From: Telluria mixta
GTDB taxonomy: Bacteria > Pseudomonadota > Gammaproteobacteria > Burkholderiales > Burkholderiaceae_D
Reading direction: 5' to 3'
Length of the DNA stretch: 64,000 nt
NCBI RefSeq assembly: GCF_029223865.1
Contig: NZ_CP119520.1
Span: 2,418,001-2,482,000 of the forward strand
Both the position numbers and the translations under genes were made by a program. Below the pieces are notes generated by a model. The model saw nothing but the letters and a program-made list of their open reading frames with translations, ran no database searches and was not told where the DNA came from. Position 1 is the stretch's first letter; the number at the start of each line of letters is the position of its first letter. Below, one piece after another: positions 19,105 to 25,613 of this stretch.

Positions 19105-19181
19105 GTAAGGATGTGTCAGCGCGGTAACGGATTGTAAAGCCCGTCAACAGACGGGCCGGCCGCGCCGTTTTAGGGACAAGT
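19105..19181 (+). promoter_or_regulatory. Phased GTAAN promoter, copy 1
   Basis: Five half-sites (GTAAG, GTCAG, GTAAC, GTAAA, GTCAA) start at 19105, 19115, 19124, 19134 and 19143, a 10-9-10-9 spacing. A -10-like GACAAGT starts 32 bases after the last half-site. Tandem GTAAN-N5-GTAAA resembles CpxR/OmpR-class response-regulator sites. The same arrangement precedes the two paralogous genes at 20723 and 23114. Confidence 0.7.
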
Positions 19182-19233
19182 GCAGCGCAAAACGACCTGC
19201 ACCGAACCCCAAAAACTCTGAGGACCCTTCATC

Positions 19234-19623
19234 ATGAAAAAGACCATTGCTACCCTGATCGCCGGCCTGTTCGCAACCGCTGCCTTCGCCCAGGCGCCTA
19301 CGCCTGCCGCCACCACGCCGGCCGCGGCCAAGGTCGAAGCCAAGCAGGAGAAGCAGGCCGCCAAGGCTGAAGTGAAGGAAACGAAAGCCGCCACGAAAGC
19401 CGACGTCAAGGAAGCCAAGAAAGAAGCCAAGGCCGACGTGAAGGAAGCCAAGGCCGACGCCAAAGCTGAAGTGAAAGAAGCCAAGGTCGACGCCAAGGAA
19501 GTCAAGAAAGAAGCCAAGGCCGACGTGAAGGAAGCGAAAGCCGACGCCAAGCACGTCAAGGCCGAGCACAAGGCTGAACTGAAGGCTGAGCACAAGGCAA
19601 CGACCGTCGCCGCCGCCAAATAA
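19234..19623 (+). CDS. Secreted Lys/Ala-rich 11-residue-repeat protein, paralogue 1
   Basis: The 129-aa protein has a signal peptide (MKKTIATLIAGLFATAAFAQ). Its mature part is almost only Lys, Ala, Glu, Asp and Val. Residues from about 53 to 110 are built of near-exact 11-residue units such as KADVKEAKADA, predicted to form one long amphipathic, highly charged helix. This resembles LEA group 3 or apolipoprotein repeats more than any enzyme. No function is known to me. The leader GGACCCTTCATC before the ATG is identical in the other two paralogues. The opposite strand also has an open frame here, which is a by-product of the repeats. Confidence 0.82.
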   Translation: MKKTIATLIAGLFATAAFAQAPTPAATTPAAAKVEAKQEKQAAKAEVKETKAATKADVKEAKKEAKADVKEAKADAKAEVKEAKVDAKEVKKEAKADVKEAKADAKHVKAEHKAELKAEHKATTVAAAK

Positions 19624-19631
19624 GCGGTTCG

Positions 19632-20555
19632 TTACGCAGTTACAAAGCCCGCGCGATGCGGGCTTTTTTGTTTCCGCTTCTCGCGAAAAAAGTCCCATGC
19701 GGCTTCCGCGACTTCCAGGTCCGCGTTCTGCAGGCCGGTCAGCCAGTTGATGAAGCGGGGATAGCGTTTCAGGCGGCTGGGTTCCGCATGGCCGGCACCC
19801 GTGATCCGGTACAGGCCGACCTGCAATCCATCCGGTTCCTGGCCCCACATGAGACGGGTGACGCTCGTCCTGGCGCGCGGGTCGCTCACCGGCAGCCGCA
19901 CGACGTCCGGCGTGTCCGGCAAGCCCGCCAGTTCGCGCCAGGCGTGCGCGGAATCCTCGATCCCGCGCACCGGTTCGGCGAAGCCGAGCGCATACCAGGG
20001 CTTGCCGCCGTGATAGTGGATCAGCGGGTCGGCCGTGCAGCCGAAGATCAGCACCGGCAGCGGCGTCGTGGGCGCCTGCGTGCGGCCGGGCGGCGGCATC
20101 CCCGCCAGCACGACCGAGAATGCGGCCAGGCGATGCGGGAGCCGCGTCGCCGCGGCATACGCCATCCAGCCGCCGCGCGACACGCCGATCAGGTAGACGC
20201 GCGCCGGGTCGACGCCGTGGTGGGCGATCGCGTGGTCGATCAGCGCGTCGATGCAGGCGACGTCATCCTTCCTGGCCACGCGTGCTTCCGACGCGAAACA
20301 ATCGCTCCAGCCGCCCTTGCCGGCGTCCGGCGCGATCACGACGAGCTGCTCGCGCGCCGCGATGTCCAGCCAGACGGACAGCGGGGACGGCGGATACGCC
20401 AGCCCCAGCACCTGCTCCGCCAACGCGCCGGCGCCGTGCAGCACGATGACCAGCGCCCGGCCGCCGGGTGCCGCGCCGGGCGGTGCCGCGACGAGGTAGC
20501 GGCGCGGTCCTTCGGGACGGGCGAGCGAGGCGGGCAAGGGAACGAGGCTGGGCAT
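19632..20555 (-). CDS. PHB depolymerase-like alpha/beta hydrolase (esterase)
   Basis: The 307-aa protein shows the LpqC/PHB-depolymerase pattern: oxyanion region VIVLHGAGA, nucleophile elbow GVSRGGW (Ser in GxSxG), an Asp in GCTADPLIHYHGG, and a late His in ITGAGHAEP. No clear signal peptide is seen with the ATG at 20555, which is preceded by AAGGACG; the frame extends upstream but without a ribosome site. The final residues (KQKSPHRAGFVTA) are encoded by the neighbour's terminator hairpin, so the C-terminus may be recently extended. Confidence 0.78.
   Translation of the reverse strand: MPSLVPLPASLARPEGPRRYLVAAPPGAAPGGRALVIVLHGAGALAEQVLGLAYPPSPLSVWLDIAAREQLVVIAPDAGKGGWSDCFASEARVARKDDVACIDALIDHAIAHHGVDPARVYLIGVSRGGWMAYAAATRLPHRLAAFSVVLAGMPPPGRTQAPTTPLPVLIFGCTADPLIHYHGGKPWYALGFAEPVRGIEDSAHAWRELAGLPDTPDVVRLPVSDPRARTSVTRLMWGQEPDGLQVGLYRITGAGHAEPSRLKRYPRFINWLTGLQNADLEVAEAAWDFFREKRKQKSPHRAGFVTA
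19644..19670 (+). terminator. Terminator of paralogue 1
   Basis: The AAAGCCCGC/GCGGGCTTT stem with a GCGAT loop is followed by T residues. The core AGCCCGCGCGATGCGGGCT is repeated exactly after paralogue 2. The hairpin lies inside the last codons of the convergent esterase gene. Confidence 0.85.
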
Positions 20556-20597
20556 ATACGTCCTTTTACTTGGCGATGGGAAATCGTTGCATCGGTT

Positions 20598-20674
20598 GTA
20601 AGTATCTGTCAACCACGTAACCGTTTGTAAAGTTCGTCAACACACGGACGGCAGGGTTCGTTGATGGCATAAGT
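20598..20674 (+). promoter_or_regulatory. Phased GTAAN promoter, copy 2
   Basis: Half-sites GTAAG, GTCAA, GTAAC, GTAAA and GTCAA start at 20598, 20608, 20617, 20627 and 20636, with the same 10-9-10-9 spacing as copy 1. CATAAGT starts 32 bases after the last one. It lies between the divergent esterase gene and paralogue 2, so it could affect both. Confidence 0.7.
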
Positions 20675-20722
20675 CACACACAACGATGTGCAATTTGACC
20701 GACAACCAAAGGACCCTTCATC

Positions 20723-21229
20723 ATGAAAAAAACCATTGCTACCCTGATCGCCGGCCTGTTCGCTACTGCAGCTTTCGCCCAGGCGCCTGCTTCCAAGCAA
20801 GCGGTGCTGGTCGACAACGCCAACGTGAAGGCAACGAAGACCGAGACGAAGGCAGCCCCGGCCGAAGCCAAGGCAGCGCAAGCCGACGTGAAGGAAGCAA
20901 AAGCCGATGCGAAGACGGCCAAGACGCACGCCAAGGATGCGAAGGCGAGCGCCAAGCATGCGAAAGCCAAGACCAAGCATGCCGTGAAAGAAGACACGGC
21001 CGCCACGACGGCACCGGCACCGGCTGATGCAGCCGCTCCCGCCACCCCGGCTACCCCGGCCGCTCCGGCCTCGTCGGCTGCCATGGGCAGCTCGGGTACC
21101 TCGGGCACGTCGGACGCGTCGGCGACCCCGGCGACCCCGGCTGCTCCTGCCACGCCGGCTACCCCGGCTACCCCGGCTACCCCGGCACCGGAAGCTGCAC
21201 CCGCTCCTGCCGCGCCGGTCACCCAGTAA
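20723..21229 (+). CDS. Secreted Lys/Ala-rich protein with Pro-Ala-Thr tail, paralogue 2
   Basis: The 168-aa protein shares with paralogue 1 the 20-residue signal peptide and a Lys/Ala/Asp helical region (about 35-90, with KEAKADAKTAKTHAKDAKA). It then carries a low-complexity tail of Ala-Thr-Pro repeats (about 95-165), encoded by tandem copies of a nine-base unit near 21165-21190. The tail should be extended and could cross or bind the cell wall. No known domain was recognised. Promoter, leader and terminator are all duplicated from the same ancestor as paralogue 1. Confidence 0.8.
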   Translation: MKKTIATLIAGLFATAAFAQAPASKQAVLVDNANVKATKTETKAAPAEAKAAQADVKEAKADAKTAKTHAKDAKASAKHAKAKTKHAVKEDTAATTAPAPADAAAPATPATPAAPASSAAMGSSGTSGTSDASATPATPAAPATPATPATPATPAPEAAPAPAAPVTQ

Positions 21230-21248
21230 GCCGGAAGCCCTCCTCACG

Positions 21249-21273
21249 AAGCCCGCGCGATGCGGGCTTTTTC
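21249..21273 (+). terminator. Terminator of paralogue 2
   Basis: The AAGCCCGC/GCGGGCTT stem is followed by TTTTT. The core is the same 19-base hairpin as after paralogue 1, and it abuts the stop of the convergent AraC-family gene. Confidence 0.85.
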
Positions 21274-22252
21274 ATGCCCCGGTCTCATCCGCATGCATCG
21301 CGTGGAACAGACCGGGACTGACACCGAAGCGCCGCGCGAACGCTTTCGACAGCTGCCCCGGCGTCGCATATCCCGCCTGCGTGGCCACCGTCTTCAGCGC
21401 CATCGACGTCTGCAGCAGCGTGCGCGCGTGGTCGAGGCGCAGCGTCTCGACGAAGCGCGCCGGCGTCTCGCCCAGCGCATCCGTGAAGCGGCGATGGAAG
21501 GTGCGCGGCGACATGCCTGCGCGCTCCGCCAGGCTGGCCACGTCGAGCTCTCCATCAAGATGCGTGCGGATCCAGTCGACAAGGCCCGCGAACGGGCTGT
21601 CCGCTTTTTCCTGCGCCGCCAGCACGGTACTGAACTGCGACTGGTAGCCGGGCCGCCGCGCATACAGCACGAGCCGGCGCGCGATGGCGTTGGCGACGGC
21701 GTCGCCCAGGTCGCGCGCGACGAGCGCCAGGCACATGTCGATGCCGGTGGTGACGCCGGCCGACGTCCACACGTGGCCGTCTTCTACGTACAGCGCGTTC
21801 GCGTCGACGTCGACGTCGGGATGCCTGCGCCCGAGGGCGTCCGTCGCTTCCCAATGCGTGGCGACGCGCCTGCCGTCCAGCAGGCCGCACGCGGCCAGCG
21901 CGAACGCGCCCGTGCACACGGAGCCGTAGCGGCGCGCGCGGGCGCAGGCACGCCGCAGCCACGCCTGCGCGGCCGCGTCCTGTGCGAGCGCCTGCAGGCT
22001 GCGGCGGCTGGAGCCGGCGACCAGCACCGTGTCCATGGCACCCGGCTTCACGCTGGCCAGCGGCTTCGTGACGACCGCGAGGCCGCAATTGCTCGTCACG
22101 TGGCCGCCTTGCGGCGACAGGATGTGCACGCGATAAAAGGCATGGCAGGCGGCGTCGTTGGCGGCGCCGAACACGGCGGCGGGACCGGTGACGTCGAGCA
22201 CCTGGACGTCGTCGAACGTGATCAGCGCAACCTGGCGCGATGTGGAAGGCAT
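21272..22252 (-). CDS. GlxA-family AraC transcriptional regulator (InhR-like)
   Basis: The protein (326 aa from the ATG at 22252) has an N-terminal DJ-1/PfpI-like domain with the nucleophile-elbow sequence YGSVCTGAFALAACGLLDG. A C-terminal AraC DNA-binding domain has two helix-turn-helix motifs (DVASLAERAGMSPRTFHRRF and LKTVATQAGYATPGQLSKAF). A GTG five codons upstream is an alternative start; neither has a strong ribosome site. It is divergent from the isocyanide hydratase-like gene, the arrangement of inhR-inhA in Pseudomonas, so it is probably that gene's activator. Confidence 0.85.
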   Translation of the reverse strand: MPSTSRQVALITFDDVQVLDVTGPAAVFGAANDAACHAFYRVHILSPQGGHVTSNCGLAVVTKPLASVKPGAMDTVLVAGSSRRSLQALAQDAAAQAWLRRACARARRYGSVCTGAFALAACGLLDGRRVATHWEATDALGRRHPDVDVDANALYVEDGHVWTSAGVTTGIDMCLALVARDLGDAVANAIARRLVLYARRPGYQSQFSTVLAAQEKADSPFAGLVDWIRTHLDGELDVASLAERAGMSPRTFHRRFTDALGETPARFVETLRLDHARTLLQTSMALKTVATQAGYATPGQLSKAFARRFGVSPGLFHAMHADETGA

Positions 22253-22339
22253 GGCAGGAATCGACACAAGTTTGACATTGCTGCCAATGCTAGCCGCTTT
22301 CTAGAATGGGGTCATCCTTCATCCACAACGGAGCCCGAC

Positions 22340-23008
22340 ATGAATATTGGATTTTTGCTGTTCCCGCGCGTGACCCAGCTCGACCTGACCGGTCCCGCCC
22401 AGATCCTGAGCCGCGTCCCCGGCGCCCAGGTCCACCTCGTGTGGAAGACGCGCGATCCGGTGCCGACCGACGTCGGCTTCACGATCAACCCGACCACGAC
22501 GTTCGACGATTGTCCGCCGCTGGACGTGCTGTGCGTGCCGGGCGGCTTCGGCATCGAGGACCTGTTCGGCGATGCCGATACGCTGGCCTTCCTGCGCCGT
22601 CAGGGAGAGCATGCACGCTACGTCACGTCCGTGTGCAACGGCTCGCTCGTGCTGGGCGCAGCCGGACTGCTCGACGGCTACCGGTCTGCCTGTCACTGGA
22701 TCTGGTTGCCGTTCCTGACGCGTTTCGGCGCCGTGCCTGTCGCGGAACGCATCGTGCGCGACCGCAACCGGATCTCGGGCGGCGGCGTGACGGCGGGGAT
22801 CGACTTTGGCCTTGCGCTGGCGGCCGAGCTGGCCGGCGAAGACGTCGCGCGCACGATCCAGCTGGCGCTCGAATACGATCCGCGGCCGCCGTTCGATGCA
22901 GGCTCGCCGCAGGGCGCCGGGGCGGAGCTCGTGGCGCGCTACCGCGAGATGGTGGCGCCGCGGCTGGCGCGGATCGAGGCGGTGCTGGCGCAAACGGCTG
23001 AGCTGTAA
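22340..23008 (+). CDS. inhA: DJ-1/PfpI protein, isocyanide hydratase-like
   Basis: The 222-aa protein closely follows Pseudomonas isocyanide hydratase, which converts isonitriles to N-formamides. Shared landmarks are IGFLLFPRVTQLDLTGP (active-site Asp), DDCPPLDVLCVPGG, the nucleophile Cys in YVTSVCNGSLVLGAAGLL, and RISGGGVTAGIDFGL. In the Pseudomonas enzyme as I recall it, the residue after the Cys is Thr; here it is Asn, which may alter activity. ACGGAG precedes the ATG. The stop codon lies inside the promoter of paralogue 3. Confidence 0.8.
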   Translation: MNIGFLLFPRVTQLDLTGPAQILSRVPGAQVHLVWKTRDPVPTDVGFTINPTTTFDDCPPLDVLCVPGGFGIEDLFGDADTLAFLRRQGEHARYVTSVCNGSLVLGAAGLLDGYRSACHWIWLPFLTRFGAVPVAERIVRDRNRISGGGVTAGIDFGLALAAELAGEDVARTIQLALEYDPRPPFDAGSPQGAGAELVARYREMVAPRLARIEAVLAQTAEL

Positions 23009-23062
23009 GTGTTTGTAAATCGCGTCAACAGCGGGGCAGGGTGGGCCGTTTCCAGCACAAGT
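23005..23062 (+). promoter_or_regulatory. Phased GTAAN promoter, copy 3
   Basis: Three half-sites (GTAAG 23005, GTAAA 23015, GTCAA 23024) are spaced 10 and 9, and CACAAGT starts 32 bases after the last. The two outer half-sites found in copies 1 and 2 are missing, because the coding sequence of the inhA-like gene occupies that stretch. Confidence 0.65.
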
Positions 23063-23113
23063 GAGACGCAAACGTGCATCACTGCCTACCCAACACCACG
23101 AGGACCCTTCATC

Positions 23114-23374
23114 ATGAAACGTACCATCGCCACCCTGATCGCCGGCCTGTTCGCCACCGCTGCCTTTGCCCAGACCCCGGCTCCGGCCCCGACGACGACG
23201 CCGGATTCGGCCACGCCGCCGGCCGTCGCCAAGGCCGAAGCGACGCACGAGAAGCAGGAAGCGAAGAAGACCACGAAGCACGTGAAGAAGGCCAAGCACG
23301 CGAAGAAGGCCGAGACCAAGGAAGCCGCGAAGGATGCGGCGGCCGATACGACTGCGCCGGCTGCGACCAAGTAA
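23114..23374 (+). CDS. Secreted Lys/Ala-rich protein, paralogue 3
   Basis: This is the shortest paralogue (86 aa), with signal peptide MKRTIATLIAGLFATAAFAQ, a Pro/Thr linker, and a Lys-rich segment (HEKQEAKKTTKHVKKAKHAK) ending in an Ala-rich tail. The upstream leader GGACCCTTCATC is identical to that of the other two. The 11-residue periodicity of paralogue 1 is largely lost. No known domain was recognised. The frame extends upstream to 23009, but that part covers the promoter and is unlikely to be translated. Confidence 0.78.
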   Translation: MKRTIATLIAGLFATAAFAQTPAPAPTTTPDSATPPAVAKAEATHEKQEAKKTTKHVKKAKHAKKAETKEAAKDAAADTTAPAATK

Positions 23375-23385
23375 GCAAGATGTAC

Positions 23386-23470
23386 CGTCGCCCCCGCGCA
23401 GGCGGGGGCCCAATTTGTGAGCGTGCCACTGCGCGTAAAACTTGGATCCCCGCCTTCGCGGGGATGACGT
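23386..23470. repeat. Dispersed palindromic repeat (BIME-like), copy C
   Basis: The element starts CGTCGCCCCCGCGCAGG, continues GCGGGGGCCCAATTTG and a GCGCG spacer, then CTTGGATCCCCGCC and GCGGGGATGACG. Order and orientation match copy B at 14893-14991. The end runs into a 22-base tandem repeat. Confidence 0.75.
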
Positions 23471-23523
23471 TTTAGGGCCGCGGGGATGACGTTTTAGGGC
23501 TGCGGGGATGACGTTTTGGGGCA
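23458..23523. repeat. Three tandem copies of a 22-bp unit
   Basis: The unit GCGGGGATGACGTTTTAGGG plus two bases repeats at 23458, 23480 and 23502, with few changes. A partial fourth begins at 23524. It is the terminal arm of repeat copy C amplified in place, ending just before the recG stop codon. Confidence 0.88.
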
Positions 23524-23528
23524 GCGGG

Positions 23529-25613
23529 TCAGACTTTAAGAAACTCTTCCCGCCCGCCCAGCCACCGCTGCAGGTGCGCATCGACGATGGCCTCGGCTTC
23601 GGGCCGGTCGGACTCGAGCAGCCACGCCGCCACGTCGCGCGCCTGCTCGACGATCCACTGGTCCGTCTCCAGGTTTGCGAAGCGCAGCATCGCCTGGCCC
23701 GACTGGCGCGCGCCGAGGAACTCGCCGGGGCCGCGGATTTCCAGGTCGCGCCGTGCGATCTCGAAGCCGTCGGTCGTCTCGCGCATCGTCATCAGGCGCT
23801 GTTTCGCCACAGGCCCCAGCGGGCTCTGATACAGCAGCAGGCACACGCTGGCGGCGGAACCCCGGCCCACGCGGCCCCGCAACTGGTGCAGCTGCGACAG
23901 GCCGAAGCGCTCGGCGTGCTCGATCACCATCAGCGACGCGTTGGGTACGTCCACGCCCACCTCGATCACCGTCGTCGCCACGAGCACGTGCACCTCGCCG
24001 GCGGTAAACGCATCCATGATCACCTGCTTCTCGGCCGGCTTCATGCGGCCGTGCACGAGGCCGACGACGAGGTCGGGCAGGGCTTCCGCCAGCGTCTCGT
24101 AGGTCTCGGTGGCCGTCTGCAGCTGCAGCGCTTCCGATTCCTCGATCAGCGGGCAGACCCAGTACACCTGCCGGCCTTCCTGCGCGGCCGCGTGCACGCG
24201 CTCGATCACTTCGTCGCGCCGGTTCTGATCGATGGCGCGCGTGACAATGGGCGTGCGGCCCGGCGGCAGTTCGTCGATGACGGAGACTTCCAGGTCGGCG
24301 TAATACGTCATCGCCAGCGTGCGCGGGATCGGCGTCGCGGACATCATCAACTGGTGCGGGACGAGGCCATCGGACCCCTTGTTGCGCAGGGTGAGGCGCT
24401 GGCCGACGCCGAAGCGGTGCTGTTCGTCGACGAGCACGAGACCCAGCTTCGCGAACTGCACGGTGTCCTGGATCAGCGCGTGCGTGCCGATCACGAGGTG
24501 CGCTTCGCCCGATTCCGCCATCTCGCTGGCCGCCGTCTTTTCCTTCTTTTTCAGGCTGCCCGTCAGCCACGCGACCTTCACGCCCAGCGGTTCCATCCAC
24601 GCGGCGATCTTGCGGAAGTGTTGCTCGGCCAGGATCTCCGTCGGCGCCATCAGCGCGGCCTGGTAGCCGCTGTCGATGGCCTGTGCCGCCGCCAGCGCCG
24701 CGACGACGGTCTTGCCGCTGCCGACGTCGCCCTGCAGCAGGCGCTGCATCGGGTAATCCTCGCGCAGGTCGCGGCGGATCTCTTCGACCACGCGCTGCTG
24801 CGCATTGGTCAGCTTGAACGGCAAGGCCTGCAGGAACGACGAGGACAGCTCGCCCACCGCACCCAGCACCGGCGCCCCCTTTTCACGGCGGGCCTGCTGC
24901 GCGCGTTTCAACGACAACTGCTGCGCCAGCAGTTCGTCGAACTTCACGCGCGTCCAGGCAGGATGGCTGCGTTCCGTCAGCGCGTGTTCGTCGACGTCCG
25001 GCGGCGGATAGTGCAGCAGGCGCACGGCGGGCTGGAACTCGGCCAGGTTCAGTTTCTCGCGCACGGCGCGCGGCACGGTGTCGGTCCAGTCCACGCGCTT
25101 CATCGCGTCGGCGATCGCGCGCCGCAATATCGTCTGCGACAGCCCTTCGCCGGCCGGGTACACGGGCGTGAGGGAGTTCGGGAGCGGCGCGCCCTCGTTG
25201 ACGATTTTATACACCGGGTGGACCATCTCGGCGCCGAAGAAGCCGTGCCGGACCTCGCTGCGGGCGCGTACGCGCGTGCCCTCGGCCAGCTGTTTCACCT
25301 GGCTGCCGTAGAAATTCATGAAGCGCAGCTGGATGTCGGACGTCTCGTCGGCGATGGTCACCAGCAGCTGGCGCCGCGGTTTATACGCGATTTCGTTCTT
25401 CGTGACGACGCCTTCGACCTGCGACACGTGGCCGCCGCGCAGGCAGGCTTCGCGGATGGGCACGATCTGCGTCTCGTCCTCGTAGCGCATCGGCAGGTGC
25501 AGGACGAGGTCCATGTCCGTGCGCAGGCCGAGCTTGGCGAGCTTGCTCTCGATGCTTTTTGCTGCGGGTTTGTCTGCGGCTTTGGCCGCCGGTTTGGCAT
25601 TCGTGGCTGGCAT
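23529..25613 (-). CDS. recG: ATP-dependent DNA helicase RecG
   Basis: The 694-aa helicase remodels stalled forks and Holliday junctions. An N-terminal wedge/OB region is followed by superfamily 2 motifs: Walker A QGDVGSGKTVVAALA (about 300), DEQH box LVDEQHRFGVGQR, MMSATPIPRTLAM, and the C-terminal ATTVIEVGVDVPNA and QLRGRVGRG motifs. The extreme N-terminus is Ala/Lys-rich (PATNAKPAAKAADKPAAK), an unusual leader before the conserved part. It is divergent from queA. Confidence 0.95.
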   Translation of the reverse strand: MPATNAKPAAKAADKPAAKSIESKLAKLGLRTDMDLVLHLPMRYEDETQIVPIREACLRGGHVSQVEGVVTKNEIAYKPRRQLLVTIADETSDIQLRFMNFYGSQVKQLAEGTRVRARSEVRHGFFGAEMVHPVYKIVNEGAPLPNSLTPVYPAGEGLSQTILRRAIADAMKRVDWTDTVPRAVREKLNLAEFQPAVRLLHYPPPDVDEHALTERSHPAWTRVKFDELLAQQLSLKRAQQARREKGAPVLGAVGELSSSFLQALPFKLTNAQQRVVEEIRRDLREDYPMQRLLQGDVGSGKTVVAALAAAQAIDSGYQAALMAPTEILAEQHFRKIAAWMEPLGVKVAWLTGSLKKKEKTAASEMAESGEAHLVIGTHALIQDTVQFAKLGLVLVDEQHRFGVGQRLTLRNKGSDGLVPHQLMMSATPIPRTLAMTYYADLEVSVIDELPPGRTPIVTRAIDQNRRDEVIERVHAAAQEGRQVYWVCPLIEESEALQLQTATETYETLAEALPDLVVGLVHGRMKPAEKQVIMDAFTAGEVHVLVATTVIEVGVDVPNASLMVIEHAERFGLSQLHQLRGRVGRGSAASVCLLLYQSPLGPVAKQRLMTMRETTDGFEIARRDLEIRGPGEFLGARQSGQAMLRFANLETDQWIVEQARDVAAWLLESDRPEAEAIVDAHLQRWLGGREEFLKV

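Follow-up and report, generated by a model that had tools for sequence, protein, structure and literature searches.

We analyzed a 64,000-nucleotide window of the Telluria mixta genome (contig NZ_CP119520.1, positions 2,418,001 to 2,482,000; coordinates below are window positions on the forward strand unless noted) that contains three genes for secreted proteins rich in lysine and alanine, opening at ATGs 19234, 20723, and 23114. Our results suggest that each of these genes probably has its own composite envelope-stress promoter, in which an array of OmpR half-sites precedes a core of the extracytoplasmic function (ECF) type, and that the exported product resembles late embryogenesis abundant (LEA) or Asr proteins. 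The features that carry this interpretation were found by computation: the array itself, a rigid core, the co-occurrence of the two, an array grammar shared with the promoters of ompR and of an outer-membrane protein gene, and an 11-residue periodicity of lysines when averaged over the family.

The array upstream of gene 1 (19105..19138) consists of the half-sites GTAAG, GTCAG, GTAAC, and GTAAA, beginning at 19105, 19115, 19124, and 19134 (spacing 10-9-10), and that of gene 2 (20598..20631) of GTAAG, GTCAA, GTAAC, and GTAAA at 20598, 20608, 20617, and 20627, with the same spacing. Promoter 3 has two half-sites (23005..23019), GTAAG at 23005 and GTAAA at 23015, and the TAA within the first also serves as stop codon for the DJ-1/PfpI gene upstream. 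With the following GTCAAC (19143, 20636, and 23024) counted as the last unit, the spacings become 10-9-10-9, 10-9-10-9, and 10-9 in promoters 1, 2, and 3. An initial annotation of this DNA had reported these arrays, and re-reading of the coordinates bears out its positions, spacing, and copy numbers (five, five, and three); it had also correctly placed GACAAGT (19175), CATAAGT (20668), and CACAAGT (23056) at 32 bases past the start of the last unit, and the three ATGs where Lys/Ala-rich proteins with a signal-peptide-like N terminus begin. When the single-contig genome of 7,444,617 bases was scanned, the strict pattern GTAAN6GTMAN5GTMA had 5 matches, every one inside the three window promoters, and the control had 0. 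Allowing 3 mismatches at most, the longer pattern GTAAN6GTAAAN4GTCAACA matches 17 times (control, 27); the window promoters alone are free of mismatches, and the remaining 14 matches have 3 each. These scans confirm that the arrays are real and, in this 7.44-Mb genome, specific to these promoters. A genome-wide regulon of the full array was considered and rejected, the strict matches being confined to the three window promoters, with a fourth paralogue as a near match whose array and core are separated by an additional base. Because the three genes are paralogues, the likeness among their promoters is not independent evidence.

Each GTCAAC is followed, after 17 bases, by CGTT (19166, 20659, and 23047), an element absent from the initial annotation. 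Together they form GTCAAC-N17-CGTT at 19143..19169 (GTCAAC 19143-19148, CGTT 19166-19169), 20636..20662, and 23024..23050. Promoters of ECF sigma factors in general have a -35 element with AAC, a -10 element with CGT, and a fixed spacer, and the window cores agree with this description, as does the exact core in 75 of 103 family upstream regions (see below). An exact precedent exists in Acinetobacter, where point mutagenesis of the SigAb promoter identified GTCAAC as the -35 and CGTT as the -10, with a 17-bp spacer (PMC12153292; here and below, these accessions stand for partial texts of the papers), and because of it GTCAAC and CGTT are better read as the putative -35 and -10 of an ECF-type core. 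A Streptomyces sigma-E promoter that begins GTCAAC, and an AAC rule for the -35, have also been described (PMC6767563). The predicted starts fall at about 19178, 20671, and 23059, about 12 bases past the C of CGTT. CAYAAGT, which the initial annotation took for the -10, would then lie at the start of transcription: its partly conserved CAG/CAAG is 11-13 bases past the C of CGTT, the zone expected for a start, and the GACAAGT of promoter 1 (19175..19181) begins 9 bases past the start of CGTT.

To describe the core across the family, we compared 100 unique core-bearing promoters, kept from 125 rows with motif-selected ones included (the rest were duplicates or had no core); they form 61 clusters below 70% identity. 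C5, left open by the selection pattern, and G0 and C23, each left open two ways, are invariant, the remaining core letters having been fixed by the pattern. The positions of the array dimer are strongly, not absolutely, conserved, and the 17-base spacer is hardly conserved; the window promoters share 7-11 of its 17 positions. The second GTAA of the dimer lies 9 bases from GTCAAC in 65 promoters, 10 in 24, 8 in 3, and 19-20 in 4, and 4 have no dimer. On this evidence the core is rigid, whereas the array can shift somewhat: GTCAAC and CGTT are 17 bases apart in 75 of 103 family regions (see below), while the distance from array to GTCAAC varies (8, 9, 10, 19-20).

The array recurs in related genomes. 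The pattern GTAAN6GTMAN5GTCAA is present in 64 of 149 genomes (50/62 of the same genus, 11/28 other members of the family, and 3/59 of the order), compared with 4/62, 7/28, and 15/59 for the reversed-pattern control, so the matches at the level of the order are no more than chance. At 26 of the 30 loci read from this search, a gene for a Lys/Ala-rich protein follows the array at a distance of ∼93-132 bases, and the signal peptide of the protein resembles MNKLLATLIAGLFATSVFAQ; at the other four (L025, L027, L040, and L047) the match has no such gene. The match at L027 (genome G062) precedes a different gene, by eye one for a FecR-like secreted protein, and the Lys/Ala-rich family was not found in that genome at E 1e-6. 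A scan of named genomes gave 6 loci, all in Massilia. Overall, the array is kept before this gene family in at least 10 genera, a conservation that the initial annotation had anticipated for upstream regions of homologues.

We also drew a protein-based sample, meant to select less on the motif, with a query alignment built from nine array-bearing proteins, which biases it towards the finding. This search was positive in 86 of 149 genomes, and 105 upstream regions were taken (the 30 loci and 75 places picked among the matches listed), of which 103 were used (L124 and L142 were unresolved). GTCAAC-N17-CGTT occurs exactly, no more than 160 bases from the start codon, in 75 of them, and the dimer GTWA-N5-TGTWA accompanies it in 71 of these 75, compared with 3 of the 28 regions without the core. 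Those 28 comprise 25 without a dimer, 2 with a lone dimer, and one (L139) with a strict array and CGTT one base nearer. Many of these 25, which serve as an internal control, come from a group in which the signal peptide is similar but the open frames are longer. In this group (L166, L168, L171, L172, L180, L196, L215-L219, and others), frames of ∼160-215 codons are preceded by neither array nor core, and, judged from these upstream regions, such relatives are differently regulated. Upstream of L213, the core is preceded by four GTAAGCGATT-type units in tandem, and the array there appears to have expanded recently.

To assign the array to a regulator, we followed three response regulators in the relatives: OmpR (L082/L297), a CpxR-like protein (L084), and an RstA-like protein (L079). 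Among these, OmpR with its RisS-type kinase appears to be the best candidate. The protein scores 421.1 bits, above the NCBIfam OmpR equivalog cut-off of 331, and shares 64% identity with E. coli OmpR over 239 residues. The gene after it encodes a sensor histidine kinase with HisKA, HATPase_c, HAMP, and RisS periplasmic domains (PF16524, 122 bits vs 27.5), and PF16524 therefore assigns the pair to the RisA/RisS branch within the OmpR systems. At 30/30 loci read (the best-scoring ones, hence the closest relatives), GTAA(A/G)-9-GTAAC-10-GTAA stands in the promoter of ompR, with the 9/10 register of the window arrays. By our count, GTAA-9-GTAAC-10-GTAA precedes ompR in 61/61 same-genus genomes, and it was found in 16/20 further upstream regions (18 from other genera of the family, one from the same genus, and one from the order). 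A search for this triple array in genomes of the genus and the order, other genera of the family being absent from the set, found it in 61/61 (control 0/61) and 2/40 (control 1/40), respectively. Twelve of 30 triple-array loci were read beyond ompR: ten precede by 115-125 bases the start (MKKL) of a gene for an outer-membrane beta-barrel protein (PF13505, E 5e-29), on the opposite strand, and two (L386 and L392) have no clear target. In the window's own genome, a locus of this class (L061/L385, G000:C1:1968050) has the triple array reversed and a TATCTT -10-like element before the beta-barrel gene, and the other nine loci of the class have the same layout (the -10-like element in the five checked for it). 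A further triple array, GTAATGGTTGTAACAAGTTGTAA, lies at L065 (G000:C1:2626799) and also occurs in genomes G009 and G053.

The letters of the half-sites point in the same direction. A T precedes the second GTAA in 88/88 dimers before Lys/Ala-rich genes, and the dimer flanks are closer to OmpR-type than to CpxR-type sites in 92/92. In the latter comparison, the T was obligatory in the pattern used to draw the outer-membrane protein sites, and the sites are close relatives. The E. coli OmpR repeat is GTTACATTTTGTTACAT (PMC5438342), which on the other strand reads ATGTAACAAAATGTAAC, the same grammar as the arrays, and the predicted OmpR boxes of Acidithiobacillus caldus include GTAACAAGTTGTAACAGGTG (PMC9861516). 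Both the E. coli repeat, on the other strand, and the promoters of ompR itself match the window arrays in this grammar. The initial annotation had proposed a single envelope-stress response regulator bound to direct repeats; its OmpR/PhoB class, helical phase, and position adjoining RNA polymerase are supported, and of the regulators that it named (CpxR, RstA, and OmpR), OmpR fits best.

We consider it unlikely that another OmpR-family regulator, whether the CpxR-like protein, the RstA-like protein, or a further one, drives the array. The genome encodes many receiver-domain proteins (89 matches to RstA), of which the three named above were followed in relatives, and E. coli asr, the analogue of the window genes, is a target of RstA (PMC4117788; box at L053:5260). 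In addition, GTAAA-N5-GTAAAG boxes stand upstream of the CpxR-like genes at 19/20 loci, but 0/19 of these have a T before the second GTAA. The CpxR-like protein scores 225 bits, below the CpxR cut-off of 341, and the RstA-like protein, 44% identical to E. coli RstA, scores 222 bits, below the RstA cut-off of 330. At thresholds that we chose ourselves, as for the OmpR counts, the CpxR-like protein (E 1e-70) is present in 55/62 same-genus and 5/28 other family genomes, and the RstA-like protein (E 1e-75) in 60/62 and 3/28. Nine genomes of other genera have verified arrays (G063, G064, G066, G075, G078, G079, G081, G087, and G088): OmpR is found in 9/9, the CpxR-like protein in 2/9 (G066 and G079), and the RstA-like protein in 0/9. 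The 28 readable upstream regions of RstA-like genes (from 30 best-scoring loci, two unreadable) have TTTGTC...TGTA...TGTC-like repeats and not the array. RstA, which asr had suggested as regulator, was rejected on its absence from 9/9 of these genomes and its different repeat, and CpxR on its absence from 7/9 and the difference at the second half-site of its box.

The arrangement implied by the initial annotation, an OmpR-class regulator at a sigma-70 promoter with GTCAAC as a half-site that replaces the -35 and CAYAAGT as the -10, is in our judgment rather unlikely. In its favor, activators of the OmpR class commonly substitute for the -35, GTCAAC is in register and agrees with the half-site consensus, and in the outer-membrane protein promoters a sigma-70-like TATCTT lies downstream of the triple array (5/5 checked). 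However, CAYAAGT is a poor match to TATAAT and reads CTCAGT or CCCAGT in many relatives; a sigma-70 scan of the region found a single site, at 20695-20724 over the start codon of gene 2, and none at the proposed elements; and the distance from GTCAAC to CGTT is 17 in 75/103 family regions even as that from the array to GTCAAC varies. The initial annotation overlooked CGTT, the likelier -10, and put its own -10 where no sigma-70-like promoter was found. A very improbable alternative is that the promoters are alike simply because they were duplicated with the genes, and that the likeness plays no part in regulation. The genes are indeed paralogues with near-identical signal peptides and upstream ends, but the elements are fixed across the family while spacers and coding parts diverge, and of the 28 core-less relatives whose signal peptide is similar, 25 are also without the dimer.

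For the sigma factor, gene order provides a lead. The ECF gene L238 (C1:4034625-4034771 and around) matches NCBIfam NF006550 (284 vs 173 bits) and, by eye, heads an operon in which an overlapping gene encodes a 139-aa protein, apparently with a single membrane helix, and another gene a 255-aa protein with an N-terminal hydrophobic stretch. This order resembles that of the Acinetobacter operon sigAb-aabA-aabB (PMC12153292), and L238 may thus be likened to it as a candidate. The region upstream of L238 itself contains no GTCAAC-N17-CGTT core.

The three products (129 aa, 19234..19623; 168 aa with a Pro/Ala/Thr-rich tail, 20723..21229; and 86 aa, 23114..23374) have mature forms with a pI of 9.4-9.6, 29-36% Ala, and 11-26% Lys. 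Neither Pfam nor NCBIfam has a family that scores above cut-off for them, and no Pfam family does in 16 relatives (overlapping sets of 9 and 8). We calculated the autocorrelation of lysine positions in the 52 of 54 proteins with at least 12 lysines, many of them near-identical: the mean peaks at lags 4, 7, 11, 18, and 22 and is flat in shuffled sequences, with a value of 0.23 at lag 11 (0.00 in shuffles). These average peaks suggest an 11-residue, LEA-like repeat. Protein 1 shows it most plainly, with 0.61 at lag 11 and 0.50 at lag 22. An AlphaFold2 model of protein 1 from a 12-row alignment has a helix at residues 29-128, of low to medium confidence; with block pLDDT of ∼50-87 and pTM of 0.31, it shows helical propensity only. 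We infer that the Lys/Ala-rich proteins would work like Asr or LEA proteins, while belonging to neither family by the tests run.

Taken together, these observations suggest the following mechanism, in which OmpR binding and activation, the sigma factor used, the start position, the inducing signal, and the function of the protein are all inferred. Phosphorylated OmpR, with its RisS-type kinase, would bind the GTAA half-sites head-to-tail just upstream of the core. There it would sit in helical phase with the -35 element and help RNA polymerase to start, while an ECF-type sigma factor would recognize GTCAAC-N17-CGTT and direct initiation about 12 bases past the C of CGTT. The transcript may open with a short protective stem-loop. 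The product would be exported through its conserved signal peptide as a flexible, helix-prone periplasmic protein of LEA or Asr type, which could protect the envelope or its proteins under osmotic, acid, or drying stress. More tentatively, and with somewhat less than even confidence, we suggest that a two-component system that senses the envelope acts jointly with an alternative sigma factor (L238), in fixed helical phase, on an as yet unnamed group of LEA-like secreted proteins, helix-prone and spread across the Massilia family; protection of the envelope would then require both signals at once. If the mechanism is true, an uncharacterized secreted protein family can be assigned a regulator and a type of sigma factor, and its role in envelope stress becomes testable; the promoters would illustrate, in compact natural form, how a two-component activator works on an ECF core; and the GTCAAC/CGTT promoter type would extend beyond Acinetobacter. 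We found no account of this system in the literature on OmpR in Massilia, on an acid shock protein or EnvZ regulon in Oxalobacteraceae, or on OmpR with ECF factors in betaproteobacteria, subscription papers having been mostly outside the search.

Several observations weigh against the composite promoter and the envelope-protein role. The core alone is near background in the genome, with 17 matches vs 8 in the control. GTCAAC also satisfies the half-site consensus, and the spacings of 19-20 could reflect arrays whose middle unit has decayed; no dimer is recognizable in four of the 75 regions with the core. ECF sigma genes are often autoregulated, and we looked for GTCAAC-N17-CGTT upstream of 15 sigma-type genes (L237-L251, of 30 region-4 matches, sigma genes without a region-4 match being outside the set) and did not find it in the stretch scanned, so that none of the genes inspected qualifies as an autoregulated ECF sigma gene by this core. 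The likeness to SigAb rests on promoter elements and not on protein sequence, and SigAb is described as Acinetobacter-specific (PMC12153292). In that system, AT-rich DNA upstream of the -35 acts as a possible UP element (PMC12153292), and the array might likewise act solely as an UP element. The co-occurrence of OmpR with arrays is weak support because OmpR is present in 88/90 family genomes. The ECF core is present neither in ompR promoters (30/30) nor in outer-membrane protein promoters (5/5 checked), and OmpR would therefore have to work with different sigma factors. An osmotic inducing signal is an assumption, the sensor domain of the kinase being RisS-type. In E. coli asr, the box has the opposite orientation to that of the window arrays. 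Among the proteins, protein 2 has a 7-residue period (peaks at 7, 14, and 21; 0.30 at lag 11) and protein 3 no clear periodicity (0.02 at lag 11). The only Pfam LEA match, to LEA_1 (E 0.15), comes from a single member of the set of 9, and the set of 8 has none; and in the search with NCBIfam Asr (NF033636), protein 3 reaches 7 bits against a cut-off of 50, proteins 1 and 2 having no listed match.

The predicted transcripts have possible stem-loops in their 5' untranslated regions (UTRs), which had likewise escaped the initial annotation: at 19180..19202 (-8.2 kcal/mol for 40 nt, in line with a family trend), at 20673..20699 (weak; -4.3 kcal/mol, z -0.44), and at 23060..23083 (-8.6 kcal/mol). 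When the first 40 bases past the predicted start were folded and compared with shuffles, the mean z was -1.22 in 99 promoters vs -0.17 for promoter DNA. By cluster (59), z was -1.08 vs -0.30 (Mann-Whitney p 1.8e-4), with z < -2 in 16 vs 5 of 59. The 5' fold effect across the family is thus modest, and its support consists of folding z-scores only, MAFFT having misaligned the variable stems so that covariation was unused. A terminator-like stem-loop follows gene 1 (19644..19676, 10-bp stem, T-rich tail); the scan gave 7 such sites in the region vs 4.4 expected.

As the initial annotation stated, the genes between the three are unrelated to them: a PHB-depolymerase-like esterase and, at 21272-23008, a divergent pair of an AraC-type regulator with a DJ-1/PfpI domain (reverse strand) and a stand-alone DJ-1/PfpI protein (forward strand). 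It had called the three genes a dispersed regulon; they are a local cluster of paralogues in one locus, and in the relative G041 three arrays lie 621 bases apart. The promoters were copied together with their genes and then retained. Two further core-bearing paralogues lie elsewhere in the genome: the fourth (L077/L115/L235, G000:C1:6471943) has array and core with the extra base between them, and the fifth (L220, G000:C1:51352, 69 aa) has a core without a clear array. The other inferred OmpR targets, ompR and the outer-membrane protein gene, are dispersed. Overall, the initial interpretation was right in kind, but it misplaced the -10, left the regulator open, and took a local cluster for a dispersed one. 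The 17 genome matches of the core are the three window promoters, L235 (the L077 site), three in promoter position (L220, L221, and L222), and ten others, mostly in coding DNA as judged by eye. The product of L221 (G000:C1:161551) is a helix-hairpin-helix protein, secreted and rich in Lys and Ala at its tail, and that of L222 (G000:C1:210483) is a DUF2282 protein; both are possible further targets of the same sigma factor. After gene 3, at 23440-23535, there are short repeats of GCGGGGATGACGTTTTagGGC, with similar strings near the RstA-like gene, and by their sequence they resemble dispersed REP-like repeats.

It is instructive to compare this system with known ones. In Bordetella, RisA/RisS pairs an OmpR-type regulator with a kinase that has the RisS periplasmic domain, and the likeness to the pair described here lies in that kinase domain (PF16524). 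At E. coli degP, an ECF sigma-E promoter is also activated by CpxR, so that a two-component regulator acts on an ECF-type core; the window promoters differ from it in regulator, sigma factor, and product. E. coli Asr is an intrinsically disordered chaperone induced ∼1000-fold at pH 4.4 (PMC10746267), and asr has, like the window genes, a Lys/Ala-rich exported disordered protein and a tandem box, through which an OmpR-family regulator, RstA, controls it, much as proposed here for OmpR (PMC4117788, PMC10746267). Unlike the window promoters, however, asr has no GTCAAC-N17-CGTT in the 220 bases upstream, and the window system does not require an RstA orthologue, nor does any window protein reach the Asr cut-off. 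The SigAb promoters of Acinetobacter have the -35, -10, and spacer found in the window, but they serve other target genes, and the partial text of that report mentions no OmpR array (PMC12153292). The 11-mer is a hallmark of group 3 LEA proteins (PMC12871917), whose 11-residue Ala/Lys/Glu periodicity and helical propensity the Lys/Ala-rich family may on average approach; in contrast to them, it is secreted, has no Pfam LEA match above cut-off, and includes some non-periodic members. Finally, the OmpR boxes of E. coli (GTTACATTTTGTTACAT, PMC5438342) and A. caldus (GTAACAAGTTGTAACAGGTG, predicted, PMC9861516) are, as here, 10-bp direct repeats of GTnA half-sites, whereas in the window two to four half-sites, spaced 10 and 9 bases in turn, stand directly against a core of ECF type.

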